A DNA stretch of 64,000 bases from NCBI GenBank assembly GCA_947564735.1, contig CANOEC010000001.1:186001-250000 (forward strand), read 5' to 3'. A program made the position numbers and the translations under genes. The DNA comes from an uncultured Lachnospiraceae bacterium. Lineage in GTDB: Bacteria > Bacillota > Clostridia > Lachnospirales > Lachnospiraceae. The notes under the pieces were generated by a model. That model searched no databases. It saw only the letters and a program-made list of their open reading frames with translations, and was not told the DNA's origin. This document shows, one piece after another, positions 13,222-20,881 of the stretch. Positions within the stretch are counted from its first letter, which is position 1. Each line of letters starts with the position of its first letter.

Positions 13222-14260
13222 CTACCAATACAGCTCTATCTTTTTCTCAGCTTCCTCTTCACTTAGCTCATACTGTTCCATTAATTGTTGTCTGATAATT
13301 ACACGTGGAGACGCAACAGCCTTCAAAGCCTGTATCAGCTTTTTGATACCTTCCATTCTTGCTTCTTCCCTAACTTCTCTTCTGCCTTCTTCCCTAGCTA
13401 TCCGCCGTGTCTCCTGCACATCATACGCTTCAAAATTTGCAAACAATTCTCCCATATGCCGCTCCTTTACTTTTTCTGAAAATGCTTCTGCCTCTTCACG
13501 TGGCACATTAATTTTCATAAGCAGTATTTCTACTATCTGGGCTATGATATCCAACAGGTATGCCGGTGACTTAGATGTAATATCATTTAAGTAGTCCTCG
13601 CTGATATCCTTACTGAGTTCTGCAAAATCTGTCGCTTTCTGTAACTTGCTAATCATCATTATAATAGAAAGCTCATCTTTCTTTTCCATAATCTCCGCGT
13701 TACTATAATCTTTTAGCTGTACTAGAATACATTTAAAATTTGGTAAGTAATCGCTAAAAACATTACTCAGATAAACTCTATCCTCTAATTGACTACCACC
13801 ATTCCAGTCAGATGTTCCGTCATAATAGACAATCGGAAGTACAGGAGGATATTTAAAGCTTTTTGTTTTACTGATACCCCTATGTTCTCTTTCCTGCTCT
13901 TTCTCATAGTCTTCCCAGATATACACAATATAACGTAATATTTGCATAATTACATTATAATCCACACGCGATTTATGTTCAATAAGTGAAATTAAATAAA
14001 ACGGTGTTTCGTTTCCTCTTAGCCGGACTTTTTTTTACTACATCCGAATTTCTTTCTTCAGTAAACATATGCACATATTGTCTGGAAACATCCTCAATAT
14101 CTTCAGGCTTTACATCCTTTAGAATTGGTATATTCACATACCCATGCAAAAATTGTGAGCATAAGTGGGCATCTCCAAAAATAATCTTGCTGGAACTATC
14201 TCTAATCTGCGAATTGGGAATCGTATAATCACTGCCTTGCTCATTTGTCTGTTTCATCAT
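13222..14260 (-). pseudogene. Rpn-family (YhgA-like/PDDEXK) nuclease gene with single-base frameshift
   Basis: The N-terminal frame (14260 to 13979) reads MMKQTNEQGSDY, IIFGDAHLCSQFLHGYVN, EDIEDVSRQYVHMFTEERNSDVV and then shifts. The rest reads from the other frame as VRLRGNETPFYLISLIEHKS, then VDYNVIMQILRYIVYIWEDY and PPVLPIVYYDG. Together they give one Rpn/YhgA protein with the Asp and Glu-x-Lys catalytic residues. The shift lies in a run of eight A (14029-14036, T on the given strand); seven would restore the frame. The C-terminus (RREVREEARMEGIKKLIQAL) is typical of the family and contains an internal Met at 13356 preceded by GGGAAGAAG. It is either a dead gene or slippage-controlled. Confidence 0.8.
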
Positions 14261-15869: not shown

Positions 15870-16907
15870 TTACGCTTCCCCGGCTTCCGCCAAAGGCTTT
15901 ACTTCTTCCCCGTTTATCAAACGGTACGTTTTCACAGCTTCCTTCTCCACCTTCATCTGCAAATAAATCGCATCATACTCCGTCTTTCTCGCATGATACT
16001 GCGTGTCTTGAAGAAGCTTTCTGTTTGCCGCAATCACATCCGCCAGAAGCCCAATCATAAAAGTCAGAAAACCTATGATAATCAATGTGCACGCCAGAAT
16101 AAGTGACTGTACATGTCCGCCGGACTGCCCCATTGCCATGTAAAACAAAAACCGAAACCCAATCATCAGACCAATTAACACCGGCATAACCGCCAGATAG
16201 GTAAAGGACTTAAGCGGTTTATACATCATATACGCACGAAGGATTGTCAGCATACTTTTTTTCACATATCCCCATATGCTGTGAAATAATCTCGATGGTC
16301 TTAGCTCTGCATTTGTTCTTACCGGCACGCTTGTAATTGCCATTTTTTCTCTGCCCGCCTGCACAATTGTCTCAAGTGTATATGTATAATCATTTACTAC
16401 ATTGATGTGCATTGCAGCTTCCCTGCTGAAGGCACGAAAACCGCTCGGTGCATCGGGTATATCTGTATTGGAAGCTTTTCGCACGACCCAGCTTCCGAAA
16501 TGCTGCAATTTCTTTTTTAAAAAGGAAAAGTGCTCCGTCTGGTCAATGGGTCTTTCTCCAATTACCATATCCGCCTGTCCATCCAGAATCGGCTGAATCA
16601 GCTTCTGGATATCCTCCGCGCAATACTGGTTATCTGCATCCGTATTGACAATGATATCAGCGCCGTTTCTAAGACAGCCGTCCAGTCCCGCCATAAATCC
16701 TTTGGCAAGTCCTTTATTTTGTTTGAAATTAACAACATGATGCACGCCCCATTTCTGCGCAACTTCTACAGTATTATCACTGCTGCCATCATTAATAATC
16801 AGATATTCTATCTCGTCTATTCCCTCTAACGTTCTGGGAAGGTCATTGAGCGCAATCTCCAATGTTTCCGCTTCGTTATAACAAGGAATCTGGATAATCA
16901 GTTTCAT
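15870..16907 (-). CDS. DPM1-like polyprenyl-phosphate glycosyltransferase (GT2, two TM)
   Basis: The 345-residue protein begins MKLIIQIPCYNEAETL, with IINDGSSDNT and the metal-binding DAD at 90-92 (IVNTDADNQY), then APSGFRAFSREAA, as in dolichol/polyprenyl-phosphate mannosyltransferases. Two membrane helices follow at about 235-300. Such enzymes charge polyprenyl phosphate with a sugar, which GT-C enzymes then use outside the cell. The next gene upstream is a GT-C protein, so the pair could work as donor synthase and transferase. I start at 16907, six bases after GAGGTG; a GTG three codons earlier is possible. It lies 15 bases after the GT-C gene. Confidence 0.85.
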   Translation of the reverse strand: MKLIIQIPCYNEAETLEIALNDLPRTLEGIDEIEYLIINDGSSDNTVEVAQKWGVHHVVNFKQNKGLAKGFMAGLDGCLRNGADIIVNTDADNQYCAEDIQKLIQPILDGQADMVIGERPIDQTEHFSFLKKKLQHFGSWVVRKASNTDIPDAPSGFRAFSREAAMHINVVNDYTYTLETIVQAGREKMAITSVPVRTNAELRPSRLFHSIWGYVKKSMLTILRAYMMYKPLKSFTYLAVMPVLIGLMIGFRFLFYMAMGQSGGHVQSLILACTLIIIGFLTFMIGLLADVIAANRKLLQDTQYHARKTEYDAIYLQMKVEKEAVKTYRLINGEEVKPLAEAGEA

Positions 16908-16922
16908 ATGGCGCACCTCTTT

Positions 16923-18722
16923 CTACTTAATCACAAACAGTACAAACGCCTGACTTTCGGCACATTTCTGATACTCTTTTTCAAACTCTTCCAGATATTC
17001 ACAGTTCCTGTCTGCAATCAGAAAACCTTCTTCTGGCAAAATATTTTCTAACTTGTTCTGCGCACACTTCATATCCTGTAATCCGATAATTTCTATTTTC
17101 CTGTCCCGCATGGCAAACTGTATCAAATCAATATATTGAAAACCTCCGCCATACAAATAGCTGACTGGCGCCTCATAATCCGTCATATACTGTGCAATCC
17201 GCAGATTATAATAATCCACATCATTAAAGGGCTTCGTATATTTTTCTCCAAGACCGATCGCAAGTAATGCCTCCATGAAAAGAAACACCCCCAACACATA
17301 TATGTACTTTCCAAATCGCTGTCCGATATATAGGCAAAGCATGACACATGCCATAAGCACAATTCCAAACAAAAAAGCTTTTGGAAATTCTTTCAAAACG
17401 TCATAATTCCAGTCATCCGACAAATAGCTGATACCTGCCGCAAAATACCCTTGCATAACAGTAAGTCTGCTATGCAGGGCATTCCAGAAGGTAATACCAA
17501 ACGAAAAGATTGCCACACCCACATTCACTAAAAACACACGCAACTTATGTTCGGTATCACAGACCATCATCAGACCTAATCCTATAAAAACTGGCAACAG
17601 GTGCTCATTATATCTTCCATAAACAAATCCATCCAATCTGCCGGGCGTCATGGTTGCTATTGCAGTGATAATAAATTGTCCCAACATGGAGAGCAGACAG
17701 AAAAAATAAAAATATTCTCTATTTCCGTTTTCTTCCGGCTTTACACGATTTATAAACAAATTCCGGAACAAACGGCATGTCCCATGAAAACAACCAATTA
17801 CCGCAGGAACGAACAATCCGAAGGAGGCAATAACCAAGTAGTATAATTTTCCTGCACTGCTTATCAGAAATGCTTTGATACCTTGAAAAGTAAACAAATT
17901 TTTCAATAGTTCAAAACGTCCCCTATAATCGTTAATAGATAATAATGTTGTATCCGCCACAGCATATACGGTATCCGTAACCCTTGTCTTTATCCTCATC
18001 CCACAAACGGCGCCAATTGCTAACACTGCAAATATAATCGCCACATTCTTTCGTGCGGAAGGCATCTTCCATGCATACACGATAAGTATCATTACTGCAG
18101 CAATACACACTGCCACTGTGCGCATATGTACAAAATATAGATAAAGAATTGACAATGCCAGCAAAATTCCATTTATTTTGTTTGTTTTTTCCATAAATAA
18201 AAGTATCTGGAAGCATATTAACGCATACAGGAACATAAGTAATGCTTCTGTCAACGTCATCTGTACATAAAAAGACCATGACGGATAGAAAACCGCTATT
18301 CCTACAGCCAGTACAACCTGCATTTTTTTCTCTTCTGAATCTTCTGCCCGATGCAGTCTCTTAAAAATTTCCCACAATATTCCAACTGCACCGCACTGCA
18401 ACAGCATATTGACCACAAGCGCTGCACGATATGCCTTTATGCTGTCCTTAAAAATCCATAATATGGGCGTAAGAATCATTCCGTATCCAAAAGAATAATA
18501 AGAACCAAGCGCCGCCGTGTCGGACCAGTCATAACCTAACATCTGCGCTGCGCTCGCCCAGTAGCCAAATTCATCCGGATAAATGGAAAATCCACACACT
18601 TTATAAATATGAAATTGAAAAATACAAAAAATAAGTAATATAAACAGCAACAAGTACCGGAAGAAGAATCTTATTCTCCCTCCGGTTACTGCCTGCCTAT
18701 CATTAATATTTAACGATAGCAT
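16923..18722 (-). CDS. GT-C membrane glycosyltransferase (GT39/ArnT-like), second paralogue
   Basis: This 599-residue protein has at least eleven hydrophobic segments and a first external loop with the catalytic-type pair Asp50-Glu51 in SIYPDEFGYW. YYSFGYGMIL, FVHMRTVAVC and PGRLDGFVYGRY follow, and a soluble C-terminal tail. It resembles the 575-residue protein at 7472-9199 throughout. It probably transfers a sugar from polyprenyl phosphate made by the adjacent DPM1-like enzyme. The frame is open to 18815, but I prefer 18722 (MLSLNINDRQ): it follows CAGGGTG and overlaps the end of the secreted-protein gene by 20 bases, suggesting translational coupling. Confidence 0.75.
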   Translation of the reverse strand: MLSLNINDRQAVTGGRIRFFFRYLLLFILLIFCIFQFHIYKVCGFSIYPDEFGYWASAAQMLGYDWSDTAALGSYYSFGYGMILTPILWIFKDSIKAYRAALVVNMLLQCGAVGILWEIFKRLHRAEDSEEKKMQVVLAVGIAVFYPSWSFYVQMTLTEALLMFLYALICFQILLFMEKTNKINGILLALSILYLYFVHMRTVAVCIAAVMILIVYAWKMPSARKNVAIIFAVLAIGAVCGMRIKTRVTDTVYAVADTTLLSINDYRGRFELLKNLFTFQGIKAFLISSAGKLYYLVIASFGLFVPAVIGCFHGTCRLFRNLFINRVKPEENGNREYFYFFCLLSMLGQFIITAIATMTPGRLDGFVYGRYNEHLLPVFIGLGLMMVCDTEHKLRVFLVNVGVAIFSFGITFWNALHSRLTVMQGYFAAGISYLSDDWNYDVLKEFPKAFLFGIVLMACVMLCLYIGQRFGKYIYVLGVFLFMEALLAIGLGEKYTKPFNDVDYYNLRIAQYMTDYEAPVSYLYGGGFQYIDLIQFAMRDRKIEIIGLQDMKCAQNKLENILPEEGFLIADRNCEYLEEFEKEYQKCAESQAFVLFVIK

Positions 18723-19422
18723 ATGCACCCTGACCACCTGTTGTATCAAAGGTGATCGTATTAGGATTGGAATCTGTATCCTGAAGAACAGACACTGCTC
18801 CGCCCGGACGTACACAAATTACAGCAAAAGTCTTACCATCCTGTGCAAATGACTTCGGCACACCGACTTTGATTGTAATCTTTTCTCCATCCTGCGAAAG
18901 AAGACTGAATTGTCCGCCAGCTTTCTTACCAATCTCAATGTTAATGCAGGGACCTACTGTAGCGCCTAAAGCTGCTGCCGCATTATCGATTACCGCTTTC
19001 GCAAGATTGCTCTTCTTAACGTCCATGTTAGAAAATCTTGCGTAAGGAACCTCTCCTGCCGTAAGTCCATAGCTGCTTGCGATTCCTGCAAGACCGCTTG
19101 TAATTGCCGTACCATCAACACTGGTTGCAATATAAACACCCTGTACTGTGGATTTTGTACCTGCAACCGTATTTGTTACAGGAATCTCAGCAATACTGCT
19201 CACGGAAGATGAACCGCTGCCATTGCTTTCGCTCGCTACGTTAACGATAGCAAGCACTTCTTCTTCCACAGTCATAACCGGCTGCTCGCATGAACCACCG
19301 GAAACAGGGTCGCCGGATCCCGTAATAGGATCGCTGCTTGCCATTACACCCATGGAAGGCGCCGCAATAAGAGCAACAGTCAAAGCGCCTGCCATCATCC
19401 TTTGAATGAATTTCATTTTCAT
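18703..19422 (-). CDS. Secreted protein of unknown function at head of glycosyltransferase operon
   Basis: The 239-residue product has a clear signal peptide (MKMKFIQRMMAGALTVALIA, cleavage probably after VMA-S near residue 29). A Gly/Ser-rich linker containing two similar repeats (DPITGSG, DPVSGGS) follows, then a mature domain of about 180 residues ending AYAIVKY. No lipobox, membrane helix or sorting motif is present, so it is likely released or wall-associated. I do not recognise a named domain. An AAGGAGGAGAGGAAGA site precedes the start. It is the first gene downstream of the putative inversion switch, and its end overlaps the GT-C gene, so the two should be expressed together. Confidence 0.75.
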   Translation of the reverse strand: MKMKFIQRMMAGALTVALIAAPSMGVMASSDPITGSGDPVSGGSCEQPVMTVEEEVLAIVNVASESNGSGSSSVSSIAEIPVTNTVAGTKSTVQGVYIATSVDGTAITSGLAGIASSYGLTAGEVPYARFSNMDVKKSNLAKAVIDNAAAALGATVGPCINIEIGKKAGGQFSLLSQDGEKITIKVGVPKSFAQDGKTFAVICVRPGGAVSVLQDTDSNPNTITFDTTGGQGAYAIVKY

Positions 19423-19474
19423 TCTTCCTCTCCTCCTTATAATTTTTTCTAAAATTTCATAAAAATTATCTTAT

Positions 19475-19500
19475 TTCATAAAATAAAATATTTTACGAAA
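19475..19500. repeat. Left putative recombination site of invertible segment
   Basis: The 26 bases TTCATAAAATAAAATA, TTTTACGAAA match, in inverted orientation, 20745-20770 at 23 positions. The site is itself an imperfect palindrome (TTCATAA ... TTACGAA around an asymmetric 11-base centre), the usual design of a tyrosine-recombinase core site. A further TTTCATAAAAATTAT lies just left of it and may be an accessory arm. Confidence 0.6.
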
Positions 19501-19558
19501 AGGAGTTTTTCATAGCTTTTTAAGCGCTTCTGCGGCACTCTACCATTTTTTTGACGGT

Positions 19559-20665
19559 CTAAAAATTCTGATTTAATCTCTCCATTAACGTTCTTTTCTG
19601 ATTGAAAGAAGTGTGCACATATAATTGAAGTGTAATGTGTATGTCAGAATGACCCATAATCTCACACAGACTTTTTGCATCAAATCCCAGTTCCACACAT
19701 CTGCTTGCAAAACAGTGCCGCAAAGCATGAAAACGAAAGATGTCAAACCCATTTTTTTTCAAAAAACGCTCAAACCGGTATTGCAATGTGCGCGGTTCAC
19801 AATAACAAACCCGTTTACCGGGAACGATATATTCTTCCGGCATTCCTTTTTTACTCATCAGAAAATTAATCAGATGACTTGGTAATGGAATATCCCTCAC
19901 AGAACTGCTCGTCTTCGGCTGCATGATATAGATTTCTGTTTCCGAATGCCTCTGAGAATATGTGCTTACCCTCTGCATTGTTTTATTGATATGAATCATC
20001 CCCTTGTCTAAGTCCACATCCTTCCATTGCAGAGCGCACAATTCTCCGATTCTGATTCCCGAATTAATTGCAATCAAGATACCGGCTTGTTCCGGCACTT
20101 CTTTTTCGTATAATAATTTTTCCACTTCATTTATAGTTTCTATGGTGGGAAGTTTTTTTGTCGCTGATTTGTTTTCATTTTTTTCGTCGAATGACGGAAT
20201 TGAGATATGATAATGAATATCTTCATGCTCATTTTCATAATATTTAAGCGCCTGTTGGAGCAATGCGATTATATTCTTGATATATCCTGCGGATAGACCG
20301 TCATCTTTCTTGGTCAGAATAAATTTACGCATCTTTTCCCGGCTTAACATTTCGGGATATATCTGCGACCAATATGGTAATAGATGATTTTCAATTATCC
20401 TCCGGTAATTTGCATAGGTCGATGGCTTCCAATATTCTTTTTTGTGTTCTAACCAATCATATAAAATAATGCCTATTGTATCGCCTTTTCCTCTGATATC
20501 ACCGTATTTTTCAATATAACTGTGCATTTTACTCTTTACTTCATTATAATTTTTGCCGTAAATAGAACGATATTTGCGTTTTTTATTCCCGTCATATCCT
20601 AAAATAATCCTTCCTTCCCATCGTCCATCCTTACGTTTATAAATATTACGCCCTCTTCTTGCCAT
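19559..20665 (-). CDS. Tyrosine site-specific recombinase
   Basis: The 368-residue protein has an N-terminal arm-type DNA-binding region (IYKRKDGRWEGRIILGYDG), a SAM-like core-binding domain (about 60-150) and a complete catalytic domain: Arg205 (SGIRIGEL), Lys251 (QPKTSSS), His313-x-x-Arg316 (HALRH), His339 (GHSDIHIT) and Tyr349 (LYVHTS). It therefore should be active. The start has CGGAGGAAAATACA upstream. There is no phage gene, excisionase or relaxase near it, and no tRNA. Instead it is enclosed by two inverted 26-bp sites, so a role as a DNA invertase controlling the surface genes at its left is more likely than integration of a mobile element. Confidence 0.9.
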   Translation of the reverse strand: MARRGRNIYKRKDGRWEGRIILGYDGNKKRKYRSIYGKNYNEVKSKMHSYIEKYGDIRGKGDTIGIILYDWLEHKKEYWKPSTYANYRRIIENHLLPYWSQIYPEMLSREKMRKFILTKKDDGLSAGYIKNIIALLQQALKYYENEHEDIHYHISIPSFDEKNENKSATKKLPTIETINEVEKLLYEKEVPEQAGILIAINSGIRIGELCALQWKDVDLDKGMIHINKTMQRVSTYSQRHSETEIYIMQPKTSSSVRDIPLPSHLINFLMSKKGMPEEYIVPGKRVCYCEPRTLQYRFERFLKKNGFDIFRFHALRHCFASRCVELGFDAKSLCEIMGHSDIHITLQLYVHTSFNQKRTLMERLNQNF

Positions 20666-20705
20666 TGTATTTTCCTCCGATTAACCATAAATTTGTAAAA
20701 AAATA

Positions 20706-20733
20706 TTGACATAACTTGGATTTAAGTTACAAT
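20706..20733 (+). promoter_or_regulatory. Strong promoter pointing out of the recombinase segment
   Basis: TTGACA (20706-20711), a 16-base spacer, then TACAAT (20728-20733). It reads rightward, away from the recombinase, yet no plus-strand gene follows for about 1.8 kb. It lies 12 bases inside the right recombination site. After inversion it would sit at about 19512-19539, reading leftward towards the secreted protein and glycosyltransferase genes. Confidence 0.65.
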
Positions 20734-20744
20734 AAAAAAAGGAA

Positions 20745-20770
20745 TTTCATAATTTATTTTATTTTATGAA
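20745..20770. repeat. Right putative recombination site of invertible segment
   Basis: TTTCATAATT, TATTTTATTTTATGAA is the inverted partner of 19475-19500, with 16 contiguous matching bases plus 7 of the next 10. It contains TTCATAA and TTATGAA arms around an asymmetric AT centre, consistent with strand exchange by the enclosed recombinase. Confidence 0.6.
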
Positions 20771-20776
20771 GTAAAA

Positions 20777-20795
20777 AAACGAGCACAGCTCGTTT
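20777..20795 (-). terminator. Insulating terminator outside the right recombination site
   Basis: AAACGAGC and GCTCGTTT form a perfect 8-bp stem with a 3-base loop. On the minus strand it is followed by a T-run, so it would stop leftward transcription entering the recombinase segment. A further imperfect palindrome (CGAGATTCG with CGAACTCG) follows it. Confidence 0.6.
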
Positions 20796-20852
20796 GCGAG
20801 ATTCGCTTCGCGAACTCGTGAATAAACGTAGGAATTTCCTATAGTATAAAAA

Positions 20853-20881
20853 AGGATCTTGGGAAGTTCTCTCAAGATCCT
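20853..20881 (-). terminator. Intrinsic terminator of the MATE gene
   Basis: AGGATCTTGGG pairs with CTCAAGATCCT over 11 positions (one wobble) around a 7-base loop. On the minus strand the stem is followed by TTTTTTATA. It lies 30 bases after the MATE stop codon. Confidence 0.8.

Follow-up and report, generated by a model that had tools for sequence, protein, structure and literature searches.

A candidate self-contained promoter-inversion cassette with an integrase-type tyrosine recombinase in an uncultured Lachnospiraceae bacterium

Within the window, as we call the whole 64,000-nucleotide stretch of DNA analyzed here, the segment 19474–20771 is very probably a self-contained promoter-inversion (phase-variation) cassette, which carries an integrase-type tyrosine recombinase and was sequenced in its OFF orientation. 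That the cassette still switches in this lineage today is held with less confidence than the cassette reading itself. In the proposed mechanism, the enclosed recombinase would act on the two 27-bp sites that flank it, and would turn its own gene and an outward promoter round together. Because the two sites are inverted and have a common spacer, the product should be an inversion, and because the recombinase gene lies within the segment in both states, switching should be reversible. In the sequenced orientation, the promoter would point right, away from the predicted operon headed by the gene for the secreted protein P0002, the expression of which would be OFF or low; after inversion, it would point left, across the left site, into the operon, which would then be ON. 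The features concerned are as follows.

15870–16916, minus strand: third predicted target gene, a family-2 glycosyltransferase (Glycos_transf_2, E 4e-24)
16923–18815, minus strand: second predicted target gene, a 630-aa membrane protein with a homolog in 5/5 orthologous loci
18703–19422, minus strand: first predicted target gene, for P0002, a secreted protein of 239 aa (by eye, with a signal peptide)
19474–19500, plus strand: left recombination site, an 11-bp arm, the spacer AAAAT (19485–19489) and a second 11-bp arm; the pair is kept in 5/5 orthologs
19559–20665, minus strand: tyrosine recombinase P0001, 368 aa, Phage_int_SAM_3 and Phage_integrase
20706–20733, plus strand: outward promoter-like site, TTGACA-N16-TACAAT, 11 of 12 consensus positions
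20745–20771, minus strand: right recombination site, an inverted copy with the identical spacer (20756–20760, minus-strand reading)
20853–20881, no strand: hairpin outside the segment, an inverted repeat; by eye, hairpins are found nearby in five orthologs

The segment, its sites and its recombinase

The sequence-only reading of this DNA had placed two 26-bp sites at 19475–19500 and 20745–20770, inverted and matching at 23 positions, 16 of them contiguous. Our own count gave the same figures (23/26, longest contiguous run 16), and the unit was extended to 27 bp, the natural site length as defined by comparison of many loci. The imperfect palindrome with an asymmetric center, also described in that reading, proved to be an asymmetric 5-bp spacer flanked by two 11-bp inverted arms. 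The left site reads TTTCATAAAAT-AAAAT-ATTTTACGAAA and the right site, as its reverse complement, CTTCATAAAAT-AAAAT-AAATTATGAAA. The two differ at 4 of the 27 positions; the spacer is unaffected, and the inner arm accounts for three of the differences. The likeness of this inverted pair is non-random: when the pair of intergenic regions (136 nt and 247 nt, each with 72% AT) was shuffled with dinucleotides preserved, none of the 2000 shuffles reached the observed score of 18, the maximum being 15.

As had been claimed, the ORF list and the promoter scan gave for 19474–20771 one recombinase ORF and one outward promoter-like site, with no further gene. The promoter-like site was the top score in the 4-kb scan, in which such sites were in no excess as a class (15 versus a shuffle mean of 13.4). 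By its consensus match, it is a putative promoter inside the segment that points outward, and when the segment was inverted in silico it read into the secreted-protein gene, with the −10 element ending 89 nt before the ATG.

Two leftward terminators were said to lie on the right of the segment. One terminator-like site was indeed found, at 20795–20777, and the second, the hairpin at 20853–20881, is absent from the terminator list; this hairpin may stop transcription between the right neighbor and the segment. We rejected the terminators as an insulating feature, as the nearer one sits within a dispersed 80-bp repeat that the orthologous locus L021 lacks at this place (by eye). This repeat, about 80 bp beside the right site (20772–20853), has at least 48 further matches in the genome, with 40 of the 118 candidates scored, and the better copies, which are dispersed and have hairpins, are 80–98% identical. 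On the left, no terminator was seen between the recombinase gene and the secreted-protein gene in the terminator scan. Because the recombinase gene reads toward the secreted-protein gene, read-through expression of the target is possible.

The recombinase itself was assigned to the tyrosine family by Pfam (Phage_integrase, E 6e-24), and no serine-recombinase family was among the families listed. Residues R205, K251, H313, R316, H339, and Y349, which we take to be the catalytic ones, are all present, and their columns are retained in 123 or 124 of the 124 aligned homologs. In PHROGs the protein is labeled an integrase, with PHROG 1 spanning residues 8–366, and its closest solved chains are 6emy, 6en0, and 6emz, an Int protein that is presumably the Tn1549 integrase. 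Judged by the Phage_int_SAM_3 domain, the PHROG label, and these chains, it is an integrase-type enzyme. About 65 residues precede its core-binding domain, and no arm-binding family was found in the protein by Pfam; the core-binding and catalytic domains are present with the catalytic residues, as in IntTn916-type tyrosine recombinases. The best-characterized arm-domain tyrosine recombinases are phage or ICE integrases, as presented in the relevant part of PMC8138268, so a dedicated inverter from this group would be unusual.

Orthologous loci and predicted target genes

The genome of the window (G000) comprises 4.5 Mb in 102 contigs, and its closest orthologous loci are in uncultured MAGs. When 78 genomes of the genus were searched with the recombinase, a match at E 1e-40 or better came up in 41, a figure that counts the window's own genome. 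Five places (L021–L025) are clear orthologs, with recombinases 69–82% identical, and the named-genome contig scan gave the same five again (as L079–L083), while a scan of viral contigs for relatives gave no match. Both sites are retained in all five. The arms have drifted between orthologs, reading CATAAAAT in most and CGCAAAAT in L025, but the two sites within one genome remain alike, and those of L025 (= L083) show no difference at any of the 27 positions. The outward promoter is also kept, with 10–11 of 12 consensus matches in 5/5 orthologs.

The secreted protein and the genes that follow it on the left had been named as the target, and conservation bears this out: on that side, all five loci have the beginning of the 630-aa gene as well as a P0002 ortholog (70–87% identity), the compared flanks ending before the third target gene. 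As a target, the right-hand MATE gene was discarded, since it occurs there only in the window and in L021 (= L079), one of the five orthologs, and is transcribed toward the segment.

P0002 has no known family in profile searches. Its predicted structure has a mean pLDDT of 59, with residues 1–98 below 50 and a β-rich C-terminal part; a PDB comparison with a cut-off of E 0.001 gave no match, and no fold was adopted. The 630-aa membrane protein has no Pfam or NCBIfam family and is perhaps a GT-C type glycosyltransferase, a label given by eye. For the family-2 glycosyltransferase, the best NCBIfam models were AglJ and PpgS, both under cut-off. We take this pair of membrane protein and family-2 glycosyltransferase to resemble the Gtr-type systems that decorate surface glycans. 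Near the glycosyltransferase genes, the window also contains a YhgA-like putative transposase family protein (13222–13965, PF04754, E 8e-15).

Genes of the P0002 type occur at 49 places in 30 of the 78 genomes. Among the 30 places inspected, 11 have an upstream recombinase and 19 have none within a flank of about 1.5 kb. In the six focal-type loci, the best promoter before P0002 rose from 7–9 of 12 consensus positions as sequenced to 10–11 of 12 after in silico inversion, at a position 57–89 nt before the ATG, so that inversion is predicted to connect the promoter to the conserved gene in 6/6 of them. Among the P0002 relatives without a neighboring recombinase, 11 of the 18 scored have a promoter of 10–11/12 within 250 nt upstream; this comparison of promoters before P0002 genes was run without a shuffle control. 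Where the recombinase of a P0002 locus has diverged, inversion brought no clear gain in the three loci scored: the promoter went from 10 to 9 of 12 in L089, from 8 to 8 in L090, and from 9 to 10 in L094, the fourth such locus, L086, having been left out of the scoring.

All 11 P0002-type loci with an upstream recombinase (30 of the 49 places inspected) are OFF-like, and a flipped copy of the focal type did not turn up among them, so that present switching at the focal locus is an inference. The same uniformity would suit a switch that was once functional and is now locked in the focal lineage, with its target expressed solely by read-through from the recombinase gene, and so would the 4/27 differences between the focal sites, with their three changes in the inner arm. 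We consider this rather unlikely, for the catalytic residues of the recombinase are intact, the spacer is identical in both focal sites, the sites and the promoter have been kept while recombinase identity fell to 69–82%, and the L025 pair is still perfect.

The wider family, spacer pairing and orientation

The comparison was widened to a draw of 397 genomes from the family, of which three or more are shared with the genus set; a recombinase match at E 1e-50 or better was present in 81. Altogether, 126 loci were analyzed, 72 of them from the family draw and 54 from the genus, the latter being the window, its five orthologs, and 48 further places. The genus places are 54 of 55 (G015:C165, later L248, is outside the 126), and the family places are 72 of 102 new ones among 107 found, the remaining 30 being mostly lower scoring, with at most five candidates scored per genome. 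Enough flank for the site test was available in 122 of the 126.

In an ungapped search for inverted repeats round the recombinase, a score of at least 18 was reached in 82/122 loci, as compared with 12/600 mismatched flank pairs (one of the 82, L188, is a duplicated gene and is excluded from the total of 89 given below). The repeats have a common design, in which 5 bp separate an arm of approximately TTTCGYARAnT from its inverted counterpart. A site model was then trained on the repeat pairs, and each flank was searched singly with the spacer masked and the scored locus excluded from training, while its relatives stayed in. Sites of at least 9 bits were obtained on both flanks in 76/122 loci, and in 73 of these 76 the spacers were identical as inverted repeats, whereas in none were they identical as direct repeats; between different loci, spacers agree in 1.2% of comparisons. 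In the three exceptions, L147, L164, and L172, the model chose a weak place, and their repeat-search scores were 21, 17, and 17, respectively. Four more loci below the 9-bit threshold also have matching spacers, and a second search, of 49 loci, gave five more matched pairs enclosing the recombinase and no direct-repeat pair.

When the recombinases of the spacer test were grouped at 60% identity, 44 of the 47 groups had a matched pair. By either method, an enclosing inverted pair was found in 89 of the 126 loci. No enclosing pair was found by either method in 37/126, among them L195 and L196, which do have a matched inverted pair, the second site of which overlaps or abuts the recombinase start. 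In these two, the recombinase match begins at query residue 41–53, and by this alignment the enzyme is perhaps a form without the N-terminal domain. In L150, both matched sites lie to the left of the recombinase, as a short inverton of 417 bp beside its enzyme. Even between related loci the spacer can differ, yet the two copies inside one locus agree, for example TAGGT in L102, AAGAT in L112, TGGAT in L116, and TGGGT in L118. Agreement of this kind would be upheld by strand exchange within a common overlap, and is consistent with inversion rather than with integration or excision, as the sequence-only reading had expected of inverted sites. That reading had also staked itself on the conservation of the sites among relatives with the recombinase, and this holds in the five orthologs; the wider family adds the 73/76 inverted spacer matches. 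An outward promoter of 11–12/12 was present in 34/77 matched loci, versus 0/77 when shuffled and 1/77 toward the recombinase, the control consisting of simple rather than dinucleotide shuffles.

Relatives that have inverted were found in one branch of the paralogous switches. When L115, L119, and L118 were compared with L104, the recombinase segment was collinear and both flanks were inverted, with one breakpoint at an intact site and the other within about 100 bp. In the comparisons of L102 with L105 and of L116 with L118, the flip was seen on one flank, with its breakpoint at the site. No right site is recognizable in L104 and L105, and of the TnpB-like target the aligned remnant in L104 is only about 220 nt long; because of this, both loci may be locked. 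In L115 and L119, the invertible segment is 2.3 kb long and includes a second gene between the recombinase and the right site (7468–8073 in L115 and 7465–8049 in L119, oriented), that of L115 being Uma2-like (PF05685, E 3e-36).

Orientation was also counted from homologous neighbor proteins, with intact and non-intact sites pooled. In the TnpB-like target group, 15 copies are on the promoter-averted side and five, all with matched sites, on the promoter side. For the CpsB-type target the figures are five and two, with one additional copy that reads toward the segment, and one of the two promoter-side copies, L170, is without a matched pair. The P0002 type (10 and 0) and the LytR-CpsA-Psr type (7 and 0) have neighbors on the averted side alone. 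By these alignments, relatives exist in both states, of which the OFF-like state is the commoner. The opposite orientation that had been predicted among relatives is thus found in the paralogous switches, but not in the focal type (0/11), in a comparison of one genome per species and of many drafts in many contigs. The idea of a self-inverting switch with its own recombinase is accordingly supported at the focal locus by site pairing and conservation, the inversions being seen in paralogs only. The large family and the integrase type of the enzyme go beyond what that reading had noticed.

These data also bear on whether the segment could be a degenerate or minimal integrative element, that is, a leftover phage or conjugative-transposon integrase with the two sites as its attachment ends. 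When an element has integrated, the crossover sequence is repeated at both of its ends in direct orientation. In our loci, the crossover is inverted in 73/76 and direct in 0/76, and for this reason a mobile-element reading of the recombinase was set aside. In addition, there is no cargo except the recombinase, the P0002 genes and the outward promoter are conserved in the orthologs, and flipped relatives are known for the paralogs. The integrase label in PHROGs, the Int protein as closest chain, and the prominence of phage and ICE integrases among arm-domain recombinases in the part of PMC8138268 concerned would agree with such an origin, which we nevertheless regard as very improbable for the segment. 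Hardly credible at all is an insertion-sequence-like element with the sites as terminal inverted repeats moved by a tyrosine transposase: it would account for a single gene between inverted ends and for family members that adjoin several kinds of genes, but the P0002 and 630-aa neighbor genes are common to six orthologs, the spacer varies among loci yet is common to both ends, a match that transposon ends do not need, and the family site pattern gives just two matched pairs in G000, with different spacers.

Returning to the promoter-inversion cassette, the second of these pairs (L095, C46:16701–29801) belongs to another cassette of G000, with a recombinase 40% identical and the spacer GTTTG, located before a CpsB/CapC capsule gene and a Wzz gene in the OFF-like orientation. 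The focal-site pattern itself, with up to three mismatches, occurs in G000 at its own two sites and at three weak places; trans targets elsewhere in the genome were dismissed, since two of these places are sites of that other cassette. Site-like sequences at C31:29318–29343 and C1:110683–110708 have the spacer CCTGT in common but are on different contigs, and no recombinase match was reported at either in the G000 search; this pair may be due to chance. With a private spacer for each cassette, recombination between several cassettes of one cell should be prevented.

Other cassettes adjoin genes for a TadZ-like protein (L145, 3674–4801, minus strand), a LytR-CpsA-Psr protein (L096, 4844–5848, minus strand), and a PP2C phosphatase (L147, 2799–3575, minus strand). 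A TnpB/Cas12f-like neighbor was found in L102 (7238–8542, plus strand), L116 (7441–8781, plus strand), and 18 more loci, mostly with 434–503 aa. For the L102 protein, the structural model gave AsCas12f as a Foldseek match (E 2e-11), and a Cas12f1-like zinc-finger domain is present in the two proteins scanned. The acidic residues expected in the RuvC motifs are missing in the 18 aligned proteins (read by eye), and because of this the neighbor looks nuclease-dead and TldR-like. It is often followed by a gene of 450–860 aa, by eye a relative of CDP-glycerol polymerases, without Pfam support. As a parallel, PMC13418256 mentions, in the part concerned, hin and promoter inversions beside csrA-tldR loci.

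It seems reasonably likely, then, that in Lachnospiraceae an integrase lineage of the conjugative-transposon type was converted into self-contained phase switches of a single gene each, a class that is widespread there. Its cassettes would consist of a recombinase, an outward promoter, and two sites with private spacers, and would be placed before capsule starter, LytR-CpsA-Psr, glycosyltransferase, TadZ-like, and, in one large branch, TnpB-like (nuclease-dead, TldR-like) genes.

Meaning and comparison with known systems

To our knowledge, phase switches are less charted in gut Clostridia than in Bacteroides. The family described here gives a readable switch rule for a major gut family, as its sites follow one design (arms of approximately TTTCGYARAnT and a locus-particular 5-bp spacer), and switches, their state, and candidate targets can therefore be found from sequence alone. 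It also poses the question of the route from integrase to dedicated inverter, and the cassettes may offer small inverters for engineering anaerobes. By full-text search, no description of the focal cassette was recognized in open-licence PMC papers, and an earlier mention is possible.

The segment of the Hin/fljBA flagellin switch of Salmonella includes an outward promoter. Like it, the focal cassette has a recombinase gene and an outward promoter inside the invertible segment; Hin is cited in PMC5903667, in the passage on such enzymes, as an example of a recombinase encoded within its segment, and the portion of PMC3798978 that deals with it describes a serine recombinase with an enhancer. 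The focal cassette differs from Hin/fljBA in its tyrosine recombinase, its site design, and its targets. Closer in enzyme and host is RecV of Clostridioides difficile (cwpV, flagellar, and cmrRST switches), also a tyrosine recombinase that uses short inverted repeats in a member of the Clostridia. RecV works on a number of segments, its own gene being outside them, whereas the focal recombinase lies within its own segment and spacers differ between cassettes. The RecV switches control surface properties, according to the section concerned of PMC5903667.

Among the invertons reported in PMC11892184, group 139 comprises, in the part of that study concerned, 33 invertons, 32 of them from the class Clostridia, linked to a nearby tyrosine-type recombinase/integrase (invertase group 35), with orientation changes in reads. 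The two examples for which that part gives coordinates are about 255 bp long and so cannot contain the recombinase. By this description, the group stands apart from the focal cassette, and L150, with its 417 bp, has such a short neighboring pair; the short Clostridia invertons of that account may be a sister arrangement. The Tn916/Tn1549-type integrases share with the focal recombinase the catalytic domain family and the nearest solved structures (the IntTn916 subgroup, as outlined in part of PMC8138268). These integrases move elements between DNA molecules, whereas the focal segment has no mobile cargo and has paired inverted sites. Promoter-inversion switches are thus known, as is a recombinase inside its segment in the case of Hin; what appears to be new is a family of self-contained cassettes built on an integrase-type tyrosine recombinase.
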